Origin: Archaeoglobus neptunius
GTDB taxonomy: Archaea; Halobacteriota; Archaeoglobi; Archaeoglobales; Archaeoglobaceae
Direction of reading: 5' to 3'
DNA length: 64,000 nucleotides
Assembly (NCBI RefSeq): GCF_016757965.1
Contig: NZ_JAEKIW010000001.1
Coordinates: 124,001-188,000 of the forward strand
The position numbers and the translations under genes were made by a program. Shown one piece after another: positions 697 to 10,214 of this stretch (its first letter is position 1; each line of letters opens with the position of its first letter). Under the pieces are notes generated by a model. It saw nothing but the letters and a program-made list of their open reading frames with translations. It ran no database searches and was not told where the DNA came from.

Positions 697-1542
697 AATG
701 ATAAAGTTTGGCTTTACGAGCTGAAGAAAGAACTTGTGACAAGGAAATATAGCAGGAGAACGGTAAAGTTCTACCTGCATTACAATGAAGAATTTTTGAA
801 GTTCTACAATAAAAGCCCATACCAGGTATCAAATGAAGATGTGAGGGATTACCTGTATTATCTGGCAGAGAAGAAGAACTGTTCGGCTTCAACTCTGAAC
901 ATAGCAATAAATGCACTGAAGTTTTACTACGGCGAGGTGCTGAAGCGGAGATTTGCTTACAGCATCAGAAGGCCAAAGAAGGACAAAAGATTGCCTGTTG
1001 TTTTAGGTCAGGAGGAGGTTTCGATGATTTTGTCATCGATTACCAACATCAAGCAGAGGCTGATTTTAATGTTCATGTATTCCGCTGGGTTGAGAGTTGG
1101 AGAGGTTGTAAGGCTCAGGATTGAAGATGTTGATGTGAAGAGAAAATTGATCAGGGTAAGGGGTGGAAAGGGAAGAAAAGATCGCTATACAATTCTTTCC
1201 GAAGTTGCGATGGAAACTTTCAAGAATATATTGAAAGATGCAGGCCGGAAAAATGGCTTTTTCCGGGGCAGAGAAGAGATAAAAACATATCAACCAGAAC
1301 GGTTCAGGCAATCTTTGAAAAAGCAAAGGATAGGGCTGGAATAAAGAAGGACGCTACCGTTCACTCTTTATGACATTCATTCGCCACCCATCTGCTCGAA
1401 AGTGGATTTGAGATGCATTCAGGAGTTGCTTGGACACAAAAGCTCAAAAACGACAGAGATTTATACTCATGTAGCAATGAAAGATTTGAGGAGGATAAGA
1501 AGTCCACTGGATATGCTGGGAGGTGATAGAGGGAATGGTTGA
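697..1542 (+). pseudogene. tyrosine recombinase (XerC/XerA-like integrase), multiply disrupted
   Basis: The open part (GTG at 736 to 1344) encodes an N-terminal SAM-like core-binding domain and the start of the catalytic domain, with the first catalytic Arg in AGLRVGEVVRL. In a T5 run at 1258-1262 the frame slips: the family sequence FPGQRRDKNISTRTVQAIF continues in the next frame. There the box HSLRHSFATHL reads HSL-stop-HSFATHL, because TGA at 1371-1373 replaces the Arg codon of the HxxR motif. A second shift at about 1413-1417 is needed to reach [19 protein letters not shown] with the catalytic Tyr, ending [13 protein letters not shown] at 1542. Codons from 697 already read as family-like N-terminus without a start, so the 5' end is probably damaged too. 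No IntI-type extra helix is seen. Enzymatically dead as it stands. Confidence 0.88.
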
Positions 1543-1543
1543 A

Positions 1544-1638
1544 AAGTTCGTATATCCTGCCGAAAAGGAGATAGTATGAAATTCACATATCTTCCCAAAT
1601 TAGACCAAAAAGCGAAGTTCGTATATACTAAGTTCAAC
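1544..1638. repeat. three direct repeats before the first cassette: candidate attI-like site
   Basis: AAGTTCGTATAT occurs exactly at 1544-1555 and 1615-1626, with a 9/12 copy (AAATTCACATAT) at 1579-1590. Spacing is 35 and 36 bases. Six bases after the last copy comes GTTCAAC (1632-1638), the proposed start of the first cassette. Known integron attI sites carry recombinase-binding direct repeats next to the GTT crossover point, so the layout fits; the functional reading is inference. Confidence 0.5.
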
Positions 1639-1697
1639 GAAATGCTCGCTCCGGCGCCTAGATAGAATGATTTAAAAACATGAAAATAACTCATTAA

Positions 1698-3524
1698 TTG
1701 AGGAAACTAACCATGATGAAAAAGGCTGTGGTTTGGGATCCGGTAATGAGATCTTCAGCAAGAAAATATGACCCTTGTATACAGATAGAAAAAGGTAGGT
1801 GTAAAATAAAGTGCGAAGATTGTAAAATAACCCTTATTGCAGATAGATTTCTAGGTGAAGAATTTCAGAGAGAAATTTTAGGAAAACTTGGTAAAAGCAA
1901 AGGAAGATACCCATATGTGATAATCGTTGATACTCTTGGCTGTAATTTAAGGTGCTGGTTCTGCTATGCGTACAAATTTTTTGATAAAAGATCTGCGGAA
2001 GAAAACGATTGTGAAATTTCTTATGTCTCGCCTACAAGACTTGCCGAACAATTTGCTTGTAAAATTAGAAAATTATCAAAATTTGAAGAACTACTTAAGA
2101 TTGCAGAGGAAAAAGAAAAGAAGGATGGTGGATGTAAAGGAGCTGTTAAGCACCTAAAAATGAAGCTTCCTTTGATGAGGGTTAGAATATCTGGGGGTGA
2201 ACCAATTTTTTCTAATAAAGAAACTCTTTTAGACCCAATCGATCAAAATAACTTGATAATTTCGACGATAAAATTCTGGTTACAATTTTTTGAAGAATTA
2301 GATAAACATATTGGAGAAATCAAGAAGGAAGGAAAATTAAACATTATAGAGAAAAATAAAATAAAAAATAAAGAATGGAAAGGTGATCTCCCATTTCCAA
2401 CATGTATTGCAGAAAGACCTGGAAGATTAAATGTAAGATTCGATACAAATGGTATTTTGTTTGGGAATTGGAAAGTTGCAGAAGCTTTTATAGGAGGTTT
2501 ATTCGATCTTTTCAAACAAAACAAGTTGAATAATTTGTTTATACAAATTGATTATTCTTTTAAAGGAGCTACTCCTGTTGAATACTGGTGGTCACAACGA
2601 AAAAAGCTACCGGTTGATTCTTCAAAAATAAATTTTGATTACAAACTTGATGAACATCCTCAATGGAATGGGTATAAAAATATTATCGAAGTAATCAATA
2701 AATATTGTAAACAAGATAAAAGTTTCTCGGATTGTGTTGGAATTACGGTTGAAAAGGGAATTGATCATCATATCCCATATAAAACATACCTGTATTGCAG
2801 AGAAGCACTTAACTGGAGTAAATTTTCCGAGAAAACAGGAATAAAATTTTCTGTTGTAAACAATCCAATTGAAATGTTTAACTGGAGGAATTGGAGGCCG
2901 AAAACATGTTTTATAGAGAATGGTGCAAACATAAAGATAATTGATAAGAATGGTGACGAATTTGATCTAAGTAAGAATCCAGACATTGACGAATTTGATA
3001 GTTTTAGAAGAAAACATTATCCCGACTGTTATTTCTTAATTTACCCAATAGATGAGAAAATAACATTGAAGAAGAAACAAAAAGGAATTCGAAAAAGACT
3101 GCCACCCTCACAAACGAAACTAGTGGAAATAATACCTACAGGATGGGTATTCTCGGGGTCGCCAGTAAATTGGAAAGTTGCGTTGAAGGAAATGAAGTGG
3201 GGACTAAAGAAAAAACATGAAAAGATTTGGAAAAGAATAAGATCGGGTGACTACGTATTGTTTTATGTTACAAGACCCTACAGTAGAATTATAGGGTTTG
3301 CACGTGTGAAAAAAATAGTAGAAGAAGACCTCCCTCTCTGGCCAGACGAAATAAAAGAACACGAGGTAAAGTATCCCCTCAGAATTATCTTTGAAAAAGT
3401 TAAAATTATAGAAGATTGGAACAAAGGATTAAAACCTAGTAAACTAAATGTACGACATGGAATAAACCCAATATACGAAAGACAAGAATTAGAAACAATC
3501 ATTCAAAATTTAAGCAAACTATAA
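1698..3524 (+). CDS. radical SAM protein with C-terminal EVE/PUA-like domain
   Basis: 608 residues. A radical SAM core is shown by C82-x3-C86-x2-C89 (TLGCNLRCWFCYA) and the SAM-binding RISGGEPIF around residue 163. Before it lies a cysteine-rich stretch (C27, C35, C39, C42) that could hold another metal. After about residue 475 the sequence changes to an EVE-like module (GWVFSGSPVNWKVAL, RIRSGDYVLFYVT, IIGFARVKKIV, about 482-590). EVE domains belong to the PUA/YTH group and are thought to read modified bases in DNA or RNA. The substrate is unknown; it is not an obvious viperin or MoaA. The gene is much richer in A and T than its neighbours, and it sits alone between two attC-like boundaries, so it was probably acquired. 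ATG at 1713 or 1716 are alternative starts to TTG 1698. Confidence 0.8.
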   Translation: MRKLTMMKKAVVWDPVMRSSARKYDPCIQIEKGRCKIKCEDCKITLIADRFLGEEFQREILGKLGKSKGRYPYVIIVDTLGCNLRCWFCYAYKFFDKRSAEENDCEISYVSPTRLAEQFACKIRKLSKFEELLKIAEEKEKKDGGCKGAVKHLKMKLPLMRVRISGGEPIFSNKETLLDPIDQNNLIISTIKFWLQFFEELDKHIGEIKKEGKLNIIEKNKIKNKEWKGDLPFPTCIAERPGRLNVRFDTNGILFGNWKVAEAFIGGLFDLFKQNKLNNLFIQIDYSFKGATPVEYWWSQRKKLPVDSSKINFDYKLDEHPQWNGYKNIIEVINKYCKQDKSFSDCVGITVEKGIDHHIPYKTYLYCREALNWSKFSEKTGIKFSVVNNPIEMFNWRNWRPKTCFIENGANIKIIDKNGDEFDLSKNPDIDEFDSFRRKHYPDCYFLIYPIDEKITLKKKQKGIRKRLPPSQTKLVEIIPTGWVFSGSPVNWKVALKEMKWGLKKKHEKIWKRIRSGDYVLFYVTRPYSRIIGFARVKKIVEEDLPLWPDEIKEHEVKYPLRIIFEKVKIIEDWNKGLKPSKLNVRHGINPIYERQELETIIQNLSKL

Positions 3525-3546
3525 TCTTGGCGCCTCCGCTCGCACT

Positions 3547-3565
3547 CAAATCCCTTCGGGATTTG
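3547..3565. terminator. perfect stem-loop after the radical SAM gene
   Basis: CAAATCCC-TTC-GGGATTTG is a perfect 8-bp stem with a 3-base loop, 23 bases after the stop codon. There is no T-run directly after it, so termination is only one possibility; an mRNA 3' stabiliser or part of the recombination site are others. Confidence 0.4.
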
Positions 3566-3577
3566 CCCTATCGGGTC

Positions 3578-3655
3578 GTTGAACAGCGGATAAACGACTC
3601 GCTTACGCTCGTCCAAATGCCTTGTAGCACTTCGTTTATCCCCAAAACGTTAGGC
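3578..3655. repeat. attC-like recombination site A
   Basis: In order: left box GTTGAAC (3578-3584), stem arm GGATAAACGA (3588-3597), a 34-base centre, the exactly complementary arm TCGTTTATCC (3632-3641), and right box GTTAGGC (3649-3655), which fits the integron consensus GTTRRRY. Its 78 bases are in the normal attC range. The left box pairs with the start of cassette 1 and the right box with the left box of site B, as expected in a cassette array. Confidence 0.6.
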
Positions 3656-4199
3656 GAAATTTCTTATAATTGTAGTCAGTAGAAGGAGGCGTTGACAATG
3701 GAAATGAAAGTGAAGGATGTAACAGTCGGAGAGTTGAAGTCCTTGATATCAGATGCAGTCAAAGAAAGTCTTGAAGATTTAATCGAGGATATGGTGGCAC
3801 TTTCAAGCGATGAATACCTACGCTCAATTGAAGAGGCGAGAACTGATTATAAAGAGGGCAGAATAAAATATCTTGAGGAAATCTCTGATGTATAAAGTAG
3901 TATTTACCCAAAGGGCGTTGAAAGATTGGAAAAACCTTGATAAAGAGGCTCAAGATAGAATCGCTACGAAACTAAAGGAATATGCTAAGGAACCTTTTAA
4001 GTATGCCAGAAAATTGATACATCCCAAGATAGGAACATACAGATTCAGAATAGGTGATTATAGAGTCATATTTGATATTGATTTGGACACAGAAAGAGCA
4101 TTTACAAATGACGAAACTTCGCCTAACAGGAGCATATCCGACTTCACTTTGCTTAACCAAATTCCTCGCTTCACTCGGAACTTCGGATACTTCCAAACG
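3650..4199 (+). mobile_element. candidate integron-type cassette 2 (RelBE-type toxin-antitoxin)
   Basis: The start GTTAGGCGAAATTTC (3649-3663) and GAAACTTCGCCTAAC (4113-4127) are inverted copies with 14 of 15 bases paired, the outer 9 perfectly. The cassette carries a toxin-antitoxin pair, the most typical cargo of large integron arrays. The same repeats could be read as the ends of a small transposon, but they lie inside the stem-forming sites rather than outside them. Confidence 0.55.
3698..3895 (+). CDS. putative antitoxin of a RelBE/ParDE-type module
   Basis: A small acidic protein (65 residues) placed directly before a RelE-like toxin. A strong ribosome binding site (AAGGAGG) 8 bases upstream supports ATG 3698 over TTG 3692. 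The middle is helical and acidic (LISDAVKESLEDLIEDMVALSS), the tail charged (SIEEARTDYKEGRIKYLEEI), as in archaeal antitoxins that wrap around their toxin. It is expected to neutralise the toxin and repress the operon. The stop overlaps the toxin start region, giving translational coupling. Identification rests mainly on size and position. Confidence 0.65.
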   Translation: MEMKVKDVTVGELKSLISDAVKESLEDLIEDMVALSSDEYLRSIEEARTDYKEGRIKYLEEISDV

Positions 4200-4259
4200 T
4201 TAGCAAAAATTCCGCACGCTGCCTTGAAAATATTTAAAACTGAGAGTAAAATAAAGTAA
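3888..4259 (+). CDS. RelE/ParE-family toxin, C-terminus replaced by site-B sequence
   Basis: ATG 3888 gives MYKVVFTQRALKDWKNLDKEAQDRI, then YARKLIHPKIGTYRFRIGDYRVIFDID, which is clearly the RelE fold of ribosome-dependent mRNA interferases. Family members end about 15 residues later with a strand like IIVLRVGHRREVY. Here the match stops near codon 72 (about 4105), and the frame then runs through the attC-like site B for another 50 residues of non-family sequence. The last beta strand with conserved basic and aromatic residues is therefore missing. The toxin is probably weak or inactive. GAGG lies 12 bases before the start. Confidence 0.7.
   Translation: MYKVVFTQRALKDWKNLDKEAQDRIATKLKEYAKEPFKYARKLIHPKIGTYRFRIGDYRVIFDIDLDTERAFTNDETSPNRSISDFTLLNQIPRFTRNFGYFQTLAKIPHAALKIFKTESKIK
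4121..4205. repeat. attC-like recombination site B
   Basis: Left box GCCTAAC (4121-4127, consensus RYYYAAC), stem GGAGCATATCCGA (4129-4141) against TCGGATACTTCC (4183-4194) pairing with one unpaired extra base, then right box GTTAGCA (4199-4205). One-sided extra bases in the stem are a known hallmark of attC sites that sets strand choice. The 85-base length is typical. The right box departs from GTTRRRY in its last two positions. Confidence 0.55.
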
Positions 4260-4261
4260 TT

Positions 4262-4620
4262 AGGCGGCAAAAATGATCTCTTGACGAAATAAAGAAAACA
4301 CGAAAAAGAAATGGGCACCTACGGCTCTTATTTAAGAGGGGAGGCAAAAAAGGGAGTGATGTTGATATGTCTATGAAAAGGAAGATCGGTGATTACATAG
4401 AAGCTATGGTAATGCAATGGAATTTTTGGTATCCTTAACAAAGTCATCCGGATTCCATGTCTTTTGTAAAATTGTAGTTGGAAAAGAATATCCGACATTC
4501 CTTGGCGAAGTATAGCTGGAATGAGAGATAAGGTTATACATGCCTATAAGAGTTTGGGAGGTTGTAAAAAGAGATATGCCAAAGCTTAAGCCTACATTTG
4601 AACAGGAGTTAAAAGAATGA
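4262..4620 (+). pseudogene. remains of an MntA-HepT (nucleotidyltransferase-HEPN) toxin-antitoxin pair
   Basis: No intact gene lies here. In one frame MGTYGSYLRGEAKKG, followed after a shift by SDVDM, matches the GSxxRGEAxxxSDVD active-site region of minimal nucleotidyltransferases (MntA antitoxin). It runs within a few codons into KRKIGDYIEAM, then IAGMRDKVIHAYKSL and WEVVKRDMPKLKPTFEQELKE (to the stop at about 4618), matching the end of HepT HEPN ribonucleases including the R-x4-6-H element. The middle of both proteins is missing or in the wrong frame. This is a deleted, fused remnant, the content of the proposed third cassette. Confidence 0.65.
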
Positions 4621-4633
4621 ATTCAGCACCGAC

Positions 4634-4708
4634 AGCGAACATTCTGCGGGTTTTGCACCTGCTCTTTGGGTTACCCAACAATCCTTGTTTAAATGCAAAA
4701 ACGTTAAC
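4634..4708. repeat. possible degenerate attC-like site C
   Basis: TTTTGCA (4651-4657) and TGCAAAA (4694-4700) are inverted copies, followed by AACGTTAAC, recalling the AAACGTTAG end of sites A and B. The left box would be AGCGAAC (4634-4640), which matches the start of cassette 3 poorly. It lies where the accessory region ends, but alone it would not be convincing. Confidence 0.3.
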
Positions 4709-4754
4709 TGGTTAACTTAACATTTTATAACTGAAAATTCTAACAATTTTCTCC

Positions 4755-6008
4755 ATGAGAGGAGTTGTGAAAACGATCAGAAGTGCTGCTGTGATTGTCT
4801 TATTAGTGGCGCTGCTTTTGGCCGGCTGTGCCCAGCAAGCTGTTCAGCAACCGTCCGAATCCGAAAAGACCCCTACAACAGAAACGAAAGAACCCATTAA
4901 AATTGGTGCAGCAATTCCACTAACAGGCCCGGGTTCTCTCACGGGTTTAGAGTTGCAAAGAGGTATGAAACTTGCTGAAAAGGAGATAAATTCTGCAGGA
5001 GGAGTTCTGGGAAGACCTATTAAAATAATATTCGAAGACACTAAGACGAACCCTGACGCTGCAAAATCGGCAGTGAAAAGACTCGCCGAAATAGAGAATG
5101 TCGATGTTTTGACAGGAATAATGTCCAGCTCGGTGTTTGCAGGAGTTATACCGGATCTAAAAAGGTATCAAAAGGTGACGCTCATCGTTGGTGCCGCATA
5201 CTCTCCTTTCGAGGAAAAATTCAAAGATGATGACTGGTTCTTCCACGTACATCCGTACGATTACCACAACGTAAAGTTCTACGCAAAGTTCCTGAAGGAT
5301 ATTGGAGTAAAAAGCATAGTTCTGTTCTACGAAAGTGGAGCATTTGGAACCGGTTCCAAGAAACAGATAGAGGAGACTTTCCCCGATTACGGAATACAGG
5401 TTCTCGACTCGCTTGAATTTACAAGCGGTTCGGGAGATTTCAGGTCTCTGATAACCAGAGCAAAGCAGCTCAACCCTGATGCTTTGCTATGGGTCGGTTA
5501 CGAGGTTGACGCTTTGCCAATTGTTCTGCAATGTAAAGAACTCGACTTCAATCCGAAAATTATAGCCGGCAGCCCACCGAGCTGGTCAAAGGAGTTCATG
5601 CAATCTAAGGAGTCCGAGTACGTCATCGGCATATCCTACTGGAACGAATACCTACCAACGGAAGAAAGCAAGAAATTCGTAGAGAAGTACAAGGAAGAGT
5701 ACGGTGTTGCCCCACTCAACTATTTCGCAGTTATCGGCTATTCCACGATAATGGCTGTGGCTAAGGGAATAGAGAAGGCGGGAAGTGTGGAGAAAGATAA
5801 GTTGATAAAGGGTCTCGAACAGGTTGAGCTTAACACACCGATGGGCACACTGAGGTTCGCCCCAAGTAAGTACATAAAGCACCAAGGATTCACGGATGGG
5901 AACGGTGTCGGATTCCAGTGGAGGGAGAGTAAGCAAATCCCCGTATATCCGCCTGAAATAGCTGTGGAAAATGTAGTGTATCCGGTTCCAAAATGGTCAG
6001 AAAGGTAA
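4755..6008 (+). CDS. LivK-like substrate-binding lipoprotein of a branched-chain amino acid-type ABC transporter
   Basis: The protein (417 residues) starts with a signal peptide and lipobox LLAGC (C25), so it should be lipid-anchored outside the membrane. A Ser/Thr/Glu/Pro-rich linker leads to a periplasmic-binding-protein type 1 fold (IKIGAAIPLTGPGSLTGLELQRGMKLAEKEINSAGGVLGRPIKIIFEDTKTNP). This family binds Leu/Ile/Val, but members also bind amides, urea or aromatic acids, so the ligand is open. It is followed at once by the LivG and LivF ATPases, but no LivH/LivM permease genes are nearby. It is the first intact native-looking gene after the accessory region. Confidence 0.85.
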   Translation: MRGVVKTIRSAAVIVLLVALLLAGCAQQAVQQPSESEKTPTTETKEPIKIGAAIPLTGPGSLTGLELQRGMKLAEKEINSAGGVLGRPIKIIFEDTKTNPDAAKSAVKRLAEIENVDVLTGIMSSSVFAGVIPDLKRYQKVTLIVGAAYSPFEEKFKDDDWFFHVHPYDYHNVKFYAKFLKDIGVKSIVLFYESGAFGTGSKKQIEETFPDYGIQVLDSLEFTSGSGDFRSLITRAKQLNPDALLWVGYEVDALPIVLQCKELDFNPKIIAGSPPSWSKEFMQSKESEYVIGISYWNEYLPTEESKKFVEKYKEEYGVAPLNYFAVIGYSTIMAVAKGIEKAGSVEKDKLIKGLEQVELNTPMGTLRFAPSKYIKHQGFTDGNGVGFQWRESKQIPVYPPEIAVENVVYPVPKWSER

Positions 6009-6047
6009 TTAATTTTAAATTTTTTAGATTTTTATCAAGGTGATCAC

Positions 6048-6785
6048 GTGGCAATAATCGAAGGTATAAACCTGACTAAGAGATTTGGAGGACTGGTGGC
6101 AGTAAATGAGCTGAGCTTCGAGCTGAATGATCGAGAGATTCTGTCAATCATCGGACCGAATGGAGCTGGAAAAACGACTTTACTGAACCTGATATCGGGA
6201 GTTTACTATCCCGATAGTGGAAAATTGATGTATAAAGGCAGAGACATAACCAAATTGGGGCCGGATGCAAGATGTAAAATGGGCATAGGTAGAACCTTTC
6301 AAATTCTCTCCCCTTTACCAGACCTGAGTGTTCTAGAAAATGTCATGGTCGGTTGTCTTTTCGGTAGAGGGGGCAAAATATCAATTTCCGAGGCCAGAAA
6401 AGAGGCAACAAAGGTTCTTGAGTTCGTCGAGCTATCGGAAAAAGCAGATTACGGAATTGAATCACTGACCACTCTGGAGCTGAAAAAACTTGAATTGGCA
6501 CGAGCTCTGGCAACAGAACCCGAAATTTTGCTTTTAGACGAGATAATGACCGGCCTCGCCGCACATGAACTCGACGAGTTTCTACCTCTGGTCGGAAGGA
6601 TAAGGGAGGAAGGGATATCTATCATTCTGATAGAGCACGTTATGAAGGTTGTAAAGAAGGTATCCGACAGGGTTATCGTCATGGATCAGGGCAGAAAGAT
6701 CGCAGAAGGGGTGTACGAAGATGTTGCAAAAAATCCGGAAGTTGTAAAGGCCTATCTGGGTGAGGCGTATGAAAGTCTTGCTTGA
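6048..6785 (+). CDS. LivG-like ABC transporter ATPase
   Basis: 245 residues with Walker A GPNGAGKTT (36-44) and Walker B EILLLDEI. The HAAT-type ABC family is shown by GIGRTFQILSPLPDLSVLENVMVG and the closing IEHVMKVVKKVSDRVIVMDQGRKIAEG. The signature loop is unusual: LTTLELKKLELARAL stands where LSGGQ or LPYGQQRRLEIARAL is expected, as in some LivG proteins. GTG is chosen as start because AAGGTGAT precedes it. It should energise uptake together with LivF and the lipoprotein upstream, on the inner face of the membrane. Confidence 0.85.
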   Translation: MAIIEGINLTKRFGGLVAVNELSFELNDREILSIIGPNGAGKTTLLNLISGVYYPDSGKLMYKGRDITKLGPDARCKMGIGRTFQILSPLPDLSVLENVMVGCLFGRGGKISISEARKEATKVLEFVELSEKADYGIESLTTLELKKLELARALATEPEILLLDEIMTGLAAHELDEFLPLVGRIREEGISIILIEHVMKVVKKVSDRVIVMDQGRKIAEGVYEDVAKNPEVVKAYLGEAYESLA

Positions 6786-7485
6786 AGTAGAGGGTTTGAA
6801 TGTTTATTACGGTAAGCTGCAGGTACTGAGAGATGTGTCACTTAGCGTTGGTGAAAAGGAGACCGTTGCTCTGGTTGGATCTAACGGTGCCGGAAAGACA
6901 ACTTTGCTCAATGCGATTGCGGGCTTTATAAAAGCTGAAAGTGGCAGAATAGTCTTTGATGGAACGGAGATGACGAACTTGCCGCCCCATCTGATAAGCA
7001 GAATGGGAATCTCTTTAGTCCCTCAGGAAAGAGAATTGTTTCCAGAGATGACGGTTCTGGAAAATATCGAACTGGGTGCAGCACACATACCCTCAGCGAG
7101 GGATAAGATGGAGGAAAATCTCGAGTTTGTGTTCGAGCTATTTCCCAAACTCAAAGAGAGGATAAACCAGAAGGCAAGAAGTTTGAGCGGTGGGGAGCAG
7201 AGAATGTTAGCGATTGCAAGAGCGTTAATGTCAAATCCAAAGCTCCTAATGCTTGACGAGCCATCTCTGGGATTGCAGCCCTCCCTGGTGCTTGAACTAT
7301 TCTCGGTTCTGGAAACCCTCAACGATAGGGGCTTGGCTGTGCTGATAGTTGAGCAGTACGTGCACAACTGCTTCAGAATTGCCAAAAGAGGATACGTGCT
7401 CGAAAACGGGGAGATAGCCATTCAGGGATACTGCACTGATCTTATCGAAAAACCCGAAATCAGAAAAGCTTATTTGGGTGTTTGA
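6769..7485 (+). CDS. LivF-like ABC transporter ATPase
   Basis: ATG 6769 overlaps the end of livG by 17 bases; an in-frame GTG lies at 6760. Canonical ABC motifs are present: GSNGAGKTT, SLSGGEQRMLAIARAL, LLMLDEPSLGL, and the LivF-type ending VEQYVHNCFRIAKRGYVLENGEIAIQG. It would pair with LivG as the second nucleotide-binding subunit. No membrane subunits are encoded beside it; the next gene is a hydrolase. Confident family call; substrate unknown. Confidence 0.85.
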   Translation: MKVLLEVEGLNVYYGKLQVLRDVSLSVGEKETVALVGSNGAGKTTLLNAIAGFIKAESGRIVFDGTEMTNLPPHLISRMGISLVPQERELFPEMTVLENIELGAAHIPSARDKMEENLEFVFELFPKLKERINQKARSLSGGEQRMLAIARALMSNPKLLMLDEPSLGLQPSLVLELFSVLETLNDRGLAVLIVEQYVHNCFRIAKRGYVLENGEIAIQGYCTDLIEKPEIRKAYLGV

Positions 7486-7494
7486 ATTCTACAC

Positions 7495-8310
7495 ATGATA
7501 ATGGAGCTTAAAGAAAATTATTTTTATTCCGATGGCTGGAGAATTAGATACGTCGATGTTGGAAACGGTGAGCCCGTAGTACTGATTCACGGACTTGGCG
7601 AGTGTATCGAAAGCTGGAAATTTCAAATCCCTGAATTATCGAAGTATTTCAGAGTTGTAGCTCTCGATCTGAGAGGTTTTGGAAAGTCGGAAATTCCAGA
7701 TGGGATAGGCGGTATTGATGATTTCGTAATGGATGTGAAAAATCTGATAGACCATTTAGATCTCAAAAAAGCCAATCTAATAGGATTCTCAATGGGCGGA
7801 GTTATATGCTTAGCCCTTTACGAAAAATATCCTGAATACGTAAAATCAATGGTTCTTGCAGATACAATCTCCCATCTCCCACCAACTCTGCTTAAAAAAA
7901 CACTGGAAACAAGGCTGAAAATTTTAAACGAGTCCGGGATGGAAAAAATATCGGAGTACATTGCGGATATTTCGTTCCACTCTAACAACCCGGAGCTTGT
8001 AGAGTTTTTCAAAGATATGATAAGGAAGAACGACAGAGAGTACTACACGAAGGTCACGGTGGCATTCTTGAATTCCGATTACAGACATGTTCTGCCGAAA
8101 ATAGATGTCCCGACACTGGTTTTGGTTGGAGAATACGACGTTACCACTCCTCCCAGACTGACCGAATACCTCGTAAACAAAATACCGAAGTCAACGCTGC
8201 GAATAATCGACAATTCAGCACATCTAACAAAAATGGAGAACCCGGAGGAATTCAACAGATACGTAATTGATTTCTTGCAGAACTTAAAGGTGGTGACCTC
8301 AGTCAAATAA
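7495..8310 (+). CDS. alpha/beta hydrolase
   Basis: Typical alpha/beta hydrolase of 271 residues: HGLGE oxyanion loop near residue 32, nucleophile Ser99 in GFSMGG, acid in LVGEYDVTTP, catalytic His in DNSAHLTKMENPEEF. It resembles the esterase, dienelactone hydrolase and BphD-like subgroup, so a ring-cleavage or ester substrate is plausible. It starts 9 bases after livF on the same strand, so it is probably co-transcribed with the transporter and may process the imported compound. It converges with the regulator gene, overlapping it by 12 bases at the 3' ends. Confidence 0.8.
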   Translation: MIMELKENYFYSDGWRIRYVDVGNGEPVVLIHGLGECIESWKFQIPELSKYFRVVALDLRGFGKSEIPDGIGGIDDFVMDVKNLIDHLDLKKANLIGFSMGGVICLALYEKYPEYVKSMVLADTISHLPPTLLKKTLETRLKILNESGMEKISEYIADISFHSNNPELVEFFKDMIRKNDREYYTKVTVAFLNSDYRHVLPKIDVPTLVLVGEYDVTTPPRLTEYLVNKIPKSTLRIIDNSAHLTKMENPEEFNRYVIDFLQNLKVVTSVK

Positions 8311-9015
8311 GTCTTCTTTCAACTTTGTCGAGATCAATTTCTCTATCACAGGCATTATTCTTCTCTCCGCTCTCCTTATGTTCTTCGACACTCCAGCTCT
8401 CGAAATTCTGTAGATCTCAGAAAGGTCTTTAATACTCGCTTTCCTTGGATCGTCGTAGAATCCGAGCTTTATTGCTCCTCTCAGCGTTAATTTTTCTGTG
8501 AGTGTCATATTCTCTACTGAATTCAGCAACTCAACCAGAACCGGGAGGTTTTCTATGACCTTTGAAAACTCCTCCAGAGTCAGCCTGTGATGTTTTCTGA
8601 TCTTAAAGTCATTTGTCTTTTCGAGTTCGTAAAGGGCATTGTCCCTTTCGGACTTCTTATCAAAACCAACTCTCCATACCTCTCTTCCGTTTTTGACTGT
8701 GAATGGCCCCACGATGTAGCCGTGGTTTCTTTTAATTATATCCATAGCGTTGGTGTGTTCTACTGTCGTTGTAAGAAGGGCCAGACTGCCTTCGCGGGAA
8801 AGGAGTTCGATATTCAGTATTTTAGGTTTAGTTCCGAGGGACTCAAGACAATTCTGAAGCTCTTCCGGGTCTGGGGCAGACATGTAAAACCTCGTTGATA
8901 AGGCTCTCTCGTTTTGGAAGTCAAAGTACGTTAGCAGATAGCTGACATCGAAGTCTTCTGAGGTATCTATGAACGGGCAGTCGGACTGTCTCATGTCGAG
9001 TGCCAAAATATACAT
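8299..9015 (-). CDS. bat-type helix-turn-helix transcriptional regulator
   Basis: 238 residues. The C-terminal 60 form the HTH common in haloarchaeal and Archaeoglobales Bat-type regulators (LTLRGAIKLGFYDDPRKASIKDLSEIYRISRAGVSKNIRRAERRIM). The N-terminal part (FYMSAPDPEELQNCLESL, VEHTNAMDIIKRNHGYIVGPFTVKNGREVWRVGF) resembles the sensory domain that precedes it in this group. It lies between the transport/hydrolase genes and the beta-oxidation operon, so it may control either. It is divergent from the small membrane protein gene at 9153, sharing an AT-rich region. Confidence 0.75.
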   Translation of the reverse strand: MYILALDMRQSDCPFIDTSEDFDVSYLLTYFDFQNERALSTRFYMSAPDPEELQNCLESLGTKPKILNIELLSREGSLALLTTTVEHTNAMDIIKRNHGYIVGPFTVKNGREVWRVGFDKKSERDNALYELEKTNDFKIRKHHRLTLEEFSKVIENLPVLVELLNSVENMTLTEKLTLRGAIKLGFYDDPRKASIKDLSEIYRISRAGVSKNIRRAERRIMPVIEKLISTKLKEDLFD

Positions 9016-9109
9016 GATTAAATTTTGATTATGTTTTTAAAAAAATTATGGTTAAGTGCCATGATAATGATGGTAATTATAAGATTTTACCTTATCTATA
9101 GGAAAAAAA

Positions 9110-9117
9110 TTTAAATA
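9110..9117 (+). promoter_or_regulatory. TATA box of the 31-residue membrane protein gene
   Basis: TTTAAATA preceded by a purine-rich BRE-like AAAAAAA lies about 40 bases before ATG 9153. That leaves room for a short leader carrying the very strong GGGGAGGGGG ribosome binding site. Confidence 0.55.
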
Positions 9118-9152
9118 CATTGCGTGCGTAGTAATAGTAAGGGGAGGGGGTT

Positions 9153-9248
9153 ATGATGGAGGCAAAACCGGTAATTGATCTGAGAGACATTCTGTTTCTG
9201 TCTGCCGGAGCTCTGGTTCTACTAATATTACAGTTGCATTTCGGATAA
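9153..9248 (+). CDS. 31-residue single-pass membrane protein
   Basis: This reading frame is short but well supported: a TATA box at 9110, a purine-rich Shine-Dalgarno region (9141-9150) just before two in-frame ATGs (9153, 9156), and one predicted membrane helix (residues about 12-28: DILFLSAGALVLLILQLHF) after a short charged head. It stands alone between the regulator and etfA, with both neighbours on the other strand. I do not recognise it. It could be a small accessory subunit of a membrane complex or a regulatory micropeptide. Confidence 0.6.
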   Translation: MMEAKPVIDLRDILFLSAGALVLLILQLHFG

Positions 9249-9260
9249 AAAAGTAAAAAA

Positions 9261-10214
9261 TTAACCTTTAAGCTCTTTTAACTTATCAATAAGCTCAGGA
9301 ACAACATCGAAAAGGTCAGCCACAACACCGTAGTGTGCCACACCGAATATAGGCGCCTCTGGGTCTTTGTTTATCGCAATTATGAGCTCGCTGTCCTTCA
9401 TTCCCATAACATGCTGGAAAGCTCCGCTGATGCCGAGAGCGAGGTAGAGCTTTGGCTTAACGACCTTACCCGATATACCAACCTGTCTGTCCTTTGGCAA
9501 CCATCCGTTGTCTATTACCGGCCTGCTTCCTGCAACAACACCACCAAGCAACTCTGCTAGCTCCTCAGCCAGCTCGATGTTTGATGCGTCTTCAATCCCC
9601 CTTCCGACCGAAACGATGATGTCTGCCTGGGTGATGTCAACCTCTCCGACTTCAGGCTCAATGTAGCTGATGAATTTCCTCTTTGATTCCCTGGACGGCT
9701 TAATTCCTGCATCTACGATCTCTCCTCCAACTTCCGATCCTTCCTTGAAAATGCCCTGTCTGATTGTCAGAACACATGGTGTCGATTTCAGTTTCAGGTC
9801 TACCATCAGCTTCCCCTGCATGAGATATCTGGAGACTTTCACGCCATCGCTGGTATCAACTGCAACAACATCGGTAGCAAGGGGAGCGTTCAGCTTTGCA
9901 GCAAGGTAGGGGGCAAACTCACTTCCCTGAGATGTGTTACCCACCAGAATCAGATCGGGGTTTTCCTTCTCAACAAGCTGCAGCAGCACATCGACGTAAA
10001 GGTCAGGGGTGTAGTTCTCGAGAGCATCATCCTCGACCTTCCACACTCTGTCGGCATATTTGACAAGCTCCTCTGCATACTTTCCAACGTCCTTCCCGAT
10101 AACCACTGCCTCTGCTGTTCCGTCCCCCTTTATCTGGTTCGCCAGATTTAGGATTTCTATGCTCAGCGGGTTGAGCTCGTCAAACCTGTATTCAGCAATG
10201 CAGAACACCTTCAT
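9261..10214 (-). CDS. etfA: electron transfer flavoprotein, alpha subunit
   Basis: 317 residues with the C-terminal FAD-binding domain signature (VVAGSRPVIDNGWLPKDRQVGISGKVVKPKLYLALGISGAFQHVMGM, AINKDPEAPIFGVAHYGVVADLFDVVPEL). It forms a heterodimer with EtfB and carries electrons from acyl-CoA dehydrogenases towards the quinone pool. The start overlaps the etfB stop (TAATG), so the two are translationally coupled. It is the last gene of the leftward beta-oxidation operon. Confidence 0.93.
   Translation of the reverse strand: MKVFCIAEYRFDELNPLSIEILNLANQIKGDGTAEAVVIGKDVGKYAEELVKYADRVWKVEDDALENYTPDLYVDVLLQLVEKENPDLILVGNTSQGSEFAPYLAAKLNAPLATDVVAVDTSDGVKVSRYLMQGKLMVDLKLKSTPCVLTIRQGIFKEGSEVGGEIVDAGIKPSRESKRKFISYIEPEVGEVDITQADIIVSVGRGIEDASNIELAEELAELLGGVVAGSRPVIDNGWLPKDRQVGISGKVVKPKLYLALGISGAFQHVMGMKDSELIIAINKDPEAPIFGVAHYGVVADLFDVVPELIDKLKELKG

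Follow-up and report, generated by a model that had tools for sequence, protein, structure and literature searches.

EVE domains are known or predicted to serve as readers ahead of nucleases, GTPases and toxins, and both EVE and YTH domains are able to bind RNA too. The closest described systems are the EVE-nuclease and EVE-McrB proteins of Archaea and Bacteria, which are predicted to be type IV restriction enzymes; they join an EVE reader to an effector and are encoded by accessory genes (PMC7641849). In another arrangement, described for Archaea by Bell et al. and comprising a DNA methylase (COG1743), DUF499 and EVE, the EVE domain is encoded by a separate gene and no radical SAM enzyme is present (PMC7641849). 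The main text of Bell et al. 2020 mentions radical SAM once, for a cobalamin-dependent enzyme encoded near EVE, with no fusion (PMC7641849). Prokaryotic viperins (pVips) are antiviral radical SAM enzymes, and their model contains no EVE domain. Finally, Integrons of Archaea (Ghaly et al. 2022, PMC9668308) describes archaeal gene cassettes that have attC sites as their boundaries; its main text names no Archaeoglobi, Halobacteriota, Diapherotrites or Thermoplasmatota.

We analyzed a stretch of Archaeoglobus neptunius DNA of 64,000 nucleotides (the window), which encodes a protein consisting of a radical SAM half and an EVE domain. Like the EVE-nuclease and EVE-McrB proteins, it joins an EVE reader to an effector and is the product of an accessory gene, but it has a radical SAM enzyme as effector and the EVE domain at its C-terminus; the EVE domains of those relatives are 28–39% identical to that of the window. 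Profile searches revealed neither a nuclease nor a McrB-type GTPase domain in the window protein, which was therefore not counted among type IV restriction enzymes. Viperin membership was rejected on score, the profile match being weak (NF038283, 12.5 bits versus a cut-off of 180), and the EVE domain sets the window protein further apart from the pVip model. The gene resides in an integron-type cassette bounded by attC, as do those of the described archaeal integrons, whereas the recombinase next to it, a broken XerA/IntI-like enzyme below the integron-integrase cut-off, differs from an integron integrase. In the open-access papers searched, we found no report of a radical SAM–EVE fusion.

Domain architecture of the radical SAM–EVE protein

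The gene and its parts are as follows.

1716..3524, + strand: radical SAM–EVE gene, 602 aa from ATG 1716, stop at 3524
1764..1856, + strand: N-terminal cysteine motif, aa 17–47, a candidate metal/Fe-S site together with C115
1941..1964, + strand: radical SAM cluster motif CNLRCWFC, aa 76–83, with C76, C80 and C83
2193..2204, + strand: GGEP motif, aa 160–163, S-adenosylmethionine-binding in radical SAM enzymes
2442..2567, + strand: DTNG (aa 243–246) and DYSFKG (aa 279–284), conserved parts of the radical SAM core
3135..3521, + strand: EVE domain, aa 474–602

The reading frame is uninterrupted from 1698 to 3524 in the list of open reading frames. The first-pass annotation placed the whole gene at 1698–3524; the intact frame up to 3524 stands, but translation most likely starts at ATG 1716 (602 aa) rather than at the in-frame upstream TTG 1698 (608 aa), because homologues begin at the codon matching the former. 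Between the window protein and its closest full-length homologue, 62% of residues are kept, as opposed to 36% identity at four-fold synonymous sites. Residues are thus conserved far above the four-fold sites, and the protein is therefore under selection.

A radical SAM core had been proposed from the CxxxCxxC and GGE motifs, and the alignment of five homologues bears this out: C76-x3-C80-x2-C83, GGE at 160–162 and DTNG at 243–246 are invariant, and all five members have GGEP, R-x-DTNG and DYS-x-KG in common. Outside the cluster motif, C21, C33, C36 and C115 (codon 2058–2060) are also invariant in the five proteins, and C29 is found in three. It is a reasonable inference from this conservation that C21/C33/C36/C115 form a second metal or Fe-S site. 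The PF04055 match is below the gathering cut-off both in the window protein (E = 0.0074, 16.9 bits versus 29.5) and in another member, L065 (E = 2e-4, 21.9 bits). Among the curated radical SAM families of NCBIfam and Pfam, none had its cut-off reached, and weak matches are scattered over viperin, NrdG2, MoaA and RiPP maturases; the predicted membership in the radical SAM superfamily rests on the conserved motifs and on these weak matches to many models. Enzymes of this superfamily have a partial or full TIM-barrel fold; in a low-confidence structural model of the radical SAM half, built from two sequences, most blocks have pLDDT of 30–70, and no solved structures related to this half by sequence were found.

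The C-terminal domain is, by structural model, an EVE domain of the PUA/ASCH superfamily, as the first reading of its sequence pattern had suggested. PF01878 matches the C-terminal 145 residues above the gathering cut-off of 23 (E = 7.7e-6, 26.4 bits) and the whole protein just under it (22.8 bits), and the EVE subfamily NF002008 also matches the C-terminal part (E = 4.3e-11). The AlphaFold2 model of the domain has a mean pLDDT of 93.4. In a Foldseek comparison with the PDB, its best matches are the archaeal EVE structures 2p5d, 2hd9 and 1wmm (E = 5e-8 to 3e-7), with the EVE proteins MJECL36 and PH1033 among them, followed by ASCH and YTH structures, including THYN1 with 5mC DNA (5j3e) and YTHDC2 with m6A DNA (9szp). 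The comparison with EVE, YTH and ASCH folds thus confirms an EVE fold for this region.

Members of the family

Searches of some 1,960 genomes, most of them archaeal, together with pattern-based scanning of 84,980 species genomes, yielded five members, of which three are fused, one has EVE as the next gene and one lacks EVE. A full-length fused homologue, 62% identical to the window protein, is encoded at positions 10001–11800 of L031 from Candidatus Diapherotrites archaeon SKW289, which belongs to another archaeal phylum. This homologue surfaced in the second pattern scan; the first, demanding R where L031 has H, gave nothing. Since so similar a full-length protein occurs in another phylum, the pairing of radical SAM and EVE is not due to chance. 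Profile searches identified another fused homologue (L065) in a genome from the phylum of a Thermoplasmatales match and a radical SAM protein without EVE (L066) in a genome from the phylum of a Desulfurococcaceae match. In L083, from the same class as L066, radical SAM and EVE are consecutive, overlapping ORFs. The search for other proteins with this domain pair, which the first-pass annotation had proposed as a check, therefore added two fusions (L031 and L065) and one adjacent pair (L083). The radical SAM halves of the other members are 34–65% identical to that of the window, and the five proteins would make up a defined, testable family with an undescribed cysteine motif.

The distribution of the family is very patchy. 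Among 393 genomes of the window's phylum there is one carrier, the other relatives found in that search being EVE-only, and no carrier was found in the seven same-genus genomes searched. Samples of Chloroflexota (201 genomes) and Omnitrophota (384 genomes) contain no member. When viral contigs (six), phage records and plasmid records were scanned, a relative of the entire protein did not turn up, and thus we see no link to counter-defence.

The integron-type cassettes

An integron cassette starts after the G of a G/TT junction and closes with an attC site; the R'' arm of this site complements the opening bases of the same cassette. The following features were identified around the radical SAM–EVE gene.

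736..1527, + strand: broken tyrosine recombinase, XerA/IntI-like, upstream of the attI-like site and in the same orientation as the cassettes
1612..1640, + strand: attI-like site of putative role, with GTTCAACGA at 1632–1640 and a poor inverted left arm TCGTATATA
1633..3649, + strand: integron-type cassette 1 (2017 bases), containing the radical SAM–EVE gene and attC only
3574..3657, + strand: attC of cassette 1, with R'' TCGTTGAAC at 3576–3584, stem GGATAAACGA/TCGTTTATCC and R' GTTAGGC at 3649
3650..4199, + strand: integron-type cassette 2 (550 bases), attC with R'' TCGCCTAAC at 4119–4127 and R' GTTAGCA at 4199
3692..3895, + strand: small ORF of 67 aa, assigned by position only to the antitoxin position of cassette 2
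3888..4259, + strand: ParE/RelE-like toxin ORF of cassette 2 (PF05016, E = 3.2e-8)

Both cassettes have the R'' arm complementary to their own 5' end, an inner stem and G/TT junctions. In cassette 1, GTTCAACGA at 1632 is exactly complementary to TCGTTGAAC at 3576, which is followed by a 10-bp inner stem and by GTTAGGC at 3649; in cassette 2, GTTAGGCGA at 3649 is complementary to TCGCCTAAC at 4119, after which come a stem and GTTAGCA at 4199. The end of cassette 1 is the start of cassette 2. Chained pairs of this kind occurred 0 times in 100 Markov controls, compared to 55 for isolated pairs. The joined circular attC forms fold with –19.4 kcal/mol (cassette 1) and –17.6 kcal/mol (cassette 2), and for neither site was any of 200 shuffles, which preserve base composition only, as low; the linear attC sites alone are less striking (z of –1.4 and –1.6). 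A 15-base direct repeat, at 1544 and 1615, lies by the attI-like site. In cassette 2, the small ORF had no family match in the profile search, and the 3' end of the toxin ORF crosses attC and extends beyond it, so that the C-terminus of the toxin looks to have been replaced.

The recombinase is interrupted after codon 202, both by a stop in frame and by frameshifts. Its intact part scores 136.7 bits against the TIGR02249 cut-off of 265 and the gene is broken, ruling out a functional integron integrase. Just upstream, at 38–688 of the window, a PRiA4_ORF3-like protein is encoded, the N-terminus of which bears a C2H2-type zinc-finger-like motif.

The gene also stands out in composition, its GC3 being 0.26 compared to 0.45–0.51 in the four downstream genes. 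The L031 copy starts at an identical edge, AGTTCAACGAAAT, with different DNA upstream of it; a 3' attC of this copy was not found. An XerA/IntI-like tyrosine recombinase is encoded 150 bases downstream of the L031 copy, with housekeeping genes around. In both the window and L031, the cassette-type genes are found beside recombinases that miss the integron-integrase cut-off. When same-genus DNA was compared with the downstream genes, short matches were found within the first ABC-transporter ATPase gene only, and an empty insertion site was not seen. Judging from the attC-bounded cassettes, the edge common to the window and L031 and the deviating GC3, the radical SAM–EVE gene is most likely a mobile cassette. 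Movement between genomes had been suggested earlier from base composition and cassette setting, and two consecutive attC-bounded cassettes together with the differing GC3 agree with it. From the edge common to the window and L031 only, we infer that the gene may have been transferred among archaeal phyla by the cassette route. An integron-type cassette and, behind it, a toxin-antitoxin-like cassette are present in a long contig from an archaeal group that is not named in the main text of PMC9668308.

EVE relatives and gene neighbourhoods

In eleven loci from several bacterial and archaeal phyla (L032–L042), EVE is N-terminal in proteins of 269–307 aa. Their conserved C-terminal block of ~150 aa, with the pattern E-EY-D-LDV-WRR-VPTYVFE-Q (e.g. 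L032 6807–7727), looks PD-(D/E)XK-like by eye, Pfam being silent in the two tested. L044 combines EVE with AAA_5 (McrB-like) and has a PD-(D/E)XK-like gene downstream. In L067, a standalone EVE follows DNA methylase, DUF499 and DndB-family genes, an arrangement like that described for Archaea (PMC7641849). A tree of 33 EVE domains has a branch that places all radical-SAM-linked ones on the same side; support for this branch is weak (77/47), and 0 of 500 label shuffles were as low. Their nearest neighbours are the standalone EVEs of L067 and its relative L052. This topology is compatible with one fusion, followed by one split, in the history of the family.

Close to the L065 member are a ParB-ASCH protein, PDC-M19B, a Cas4-like/PDDEXK_1 nuclease and an M42 peptidase; PDC-M19B is a PADLOC candidate defence family (E = 1.5e-47). 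Together with the nuclease-like, AAA/McrB-like and DNA methylase/DUF499/DndB-like associations of the EVE relatives, this is in line with the initial remark that EVE domains occur in restriction and defence settings. The proposed check of whether members sit in defence islands or integrons gave a mixed outcome: the window gene is in an integron-type cassette and L065 adjoins PDC-M19B, but the window and L031 copies lie in no recognisable defence island, mobile-element genes aside. Conversely, homologues confined to housekeeping peptide-modification operons, named at the outset as evidence against a modification or defence protein, were not encountered, no peptide-modification gene set being seen by eye in four neighbourhoods. 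In L065, the ParB-ASCH fusion, PDC-M19B and a 169-aa gene stand in a row at 6941–9226 by the radical SAM–EVE gene and possibly form a multi-gene system, and a transposase-like ORF (read by eye) is present at the contig end.

Possible functions

The combination of radical SAM and EVE and the mobility of the gene are well supported. For its function, we tentatively favour a radical SAM enzyme that is guided by EVE to modified nucleic acid, probably DNA, and that probably serves in defence; we assign this reading a probability of roughly 0.4. The C-terminal EVE domain would bind nucleic acid with a modified base, most likely DNA. The radical SAM domain, in which C76/C80/C83 are predicted to hold a 4Fe-4S cluster and C21/C33/C36/C115 probably form a second metal site, would then react on or near the bound base, changing or damaging it. 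Such a protein would act as a type IV restriction enzyme does, with a radical SAM enzyme in place of the nuclease behind the EVE reader, and its gene, an accessory one spread as an integron-type cassette, would most likely be directed against foreign DNA that carries modifications. The conjectural parts of this proposal are the substrate (DNA), the reaction, the second cluster and the role in defence.

The EVE-guided reading is favoured because the EVE fold is confirmed, with matches that include modified-DNA complexes, and because the nearest EVE relatives are predicted restriction-enzyme readers or neighbours of DNA-modification genes. Furthermore, all five proteins retain the radical SAM motifs and four additional cysteines without change, L083 pairs both parts as separate ORFs, making the link independent of fusion, and L065 adjoins PDC-M19B, ParB-ASCH and a Cas4-like nuclease. 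The patchy occurrence of the gene, its attC-bounded cassette and the toxin-antitoxin-like cassette next to it argue for an accessory role. Against the EVE-guided reading we count the poor model of the radical SAM half and its lack of sequence similarity to solved structures, the absence of EVE in L066, the position of the window and L031 copies outside defence islands, RNA binding by EVE and YTH domains and the lack of relatives in the phage and viral records scanned. If true, a radical SAM enzyme in the place of the effector would add new chemistry to the handling of modified nucleic acid, on which the protein may act in a manner not reported before. The more far-reaching claim of a new defence class, in which EVE brings a radical SAM enzyme rather than a nuclease to modified invader DNA and the gene travels as an integron cassette between archaeal phyla, is doubtful.

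RNA could be the target instead, with EVE acting as an RNA-binding PUA-like domain and radical SAM modifying a tRNA or rRNA base, perhaps as an accessory tRNA modification or as a defence altering tRNA. RNA-modifying enzymes often contain PUA-like domains, the structural matches of the EVE model include YTH RNA readers and, as L066 shows, the enzyme can manage without the reader. Yet the nearest EVE relatives go with nuclease-like domains and DNA methylases, and a very patchy distribution and cassette location disfavour a housekeeping tRNA step, which we judged unlikely for its patchiness; action on RNA in general appears rather unlikely. Location on a mobile element beside recombinases would also suit epigenetic self-marking or its reversal, whereby a host or invader mark is read and then removed or further modified to shield the carrier element or cassette, an anti-restriction function instead of defence. 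Reversal of a modification should be possible for radical SAM chemistry, but relatives are missing from the phages, plasmids and viral contigs scanned, and we regard this explanation as distinctly unlikely.

Alternatively, EVE might sense modified foreign nucleic acid and activate the radical SAM domain to produce a toxic or chain-terminating small molecule, as viperins do. All five members do give weak matches to the prokaryotic viperin model (best E = 0.001), and the two tested match PADLOC pVip with E of 4e-4 to 5e-4; however, these matches are about as weak as those to NrdG2, YhhB and MoaA and do not extend past the start of the radical SAM core, and the sequence after the cysteine motif is unlike viperin, which makes such a sensor improbable. 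Of all NCBIfam matches of the members, the best one is to the RiPP maturase YhhB (E = 2.6e-6), as would be expected if the radical SAM domain modified a partner peptide or protein and EVE merely docked the product or regulated the enzyme. But no curated threshold is reached, no SPASM-like C-terminal cysteine cluster is conserved among the members and the neighbourhoods, as noted, hold no peptide-modification gene set, so that a RiPP-type maturase is the least probable of these explanations.

Possible remnants in other archaeal genomes

L003, from a genome of the same order as the window, contains at 744–1061 a decayed EVE fragment that shares 52–56% identity with the C-terminal end of the window protein and possibly is a remnant of a radical SAM–EVE gene. 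In L096, an archaeal island at 3104–6776 comprises AbiEii, a standalone EVE, a truncated radical SAM start (CNLRCVFC) and a NucS_C-matching nuclease gene; the radical SAM remnant beside the EVE gene is too short to count and was rejected as a member of the family.
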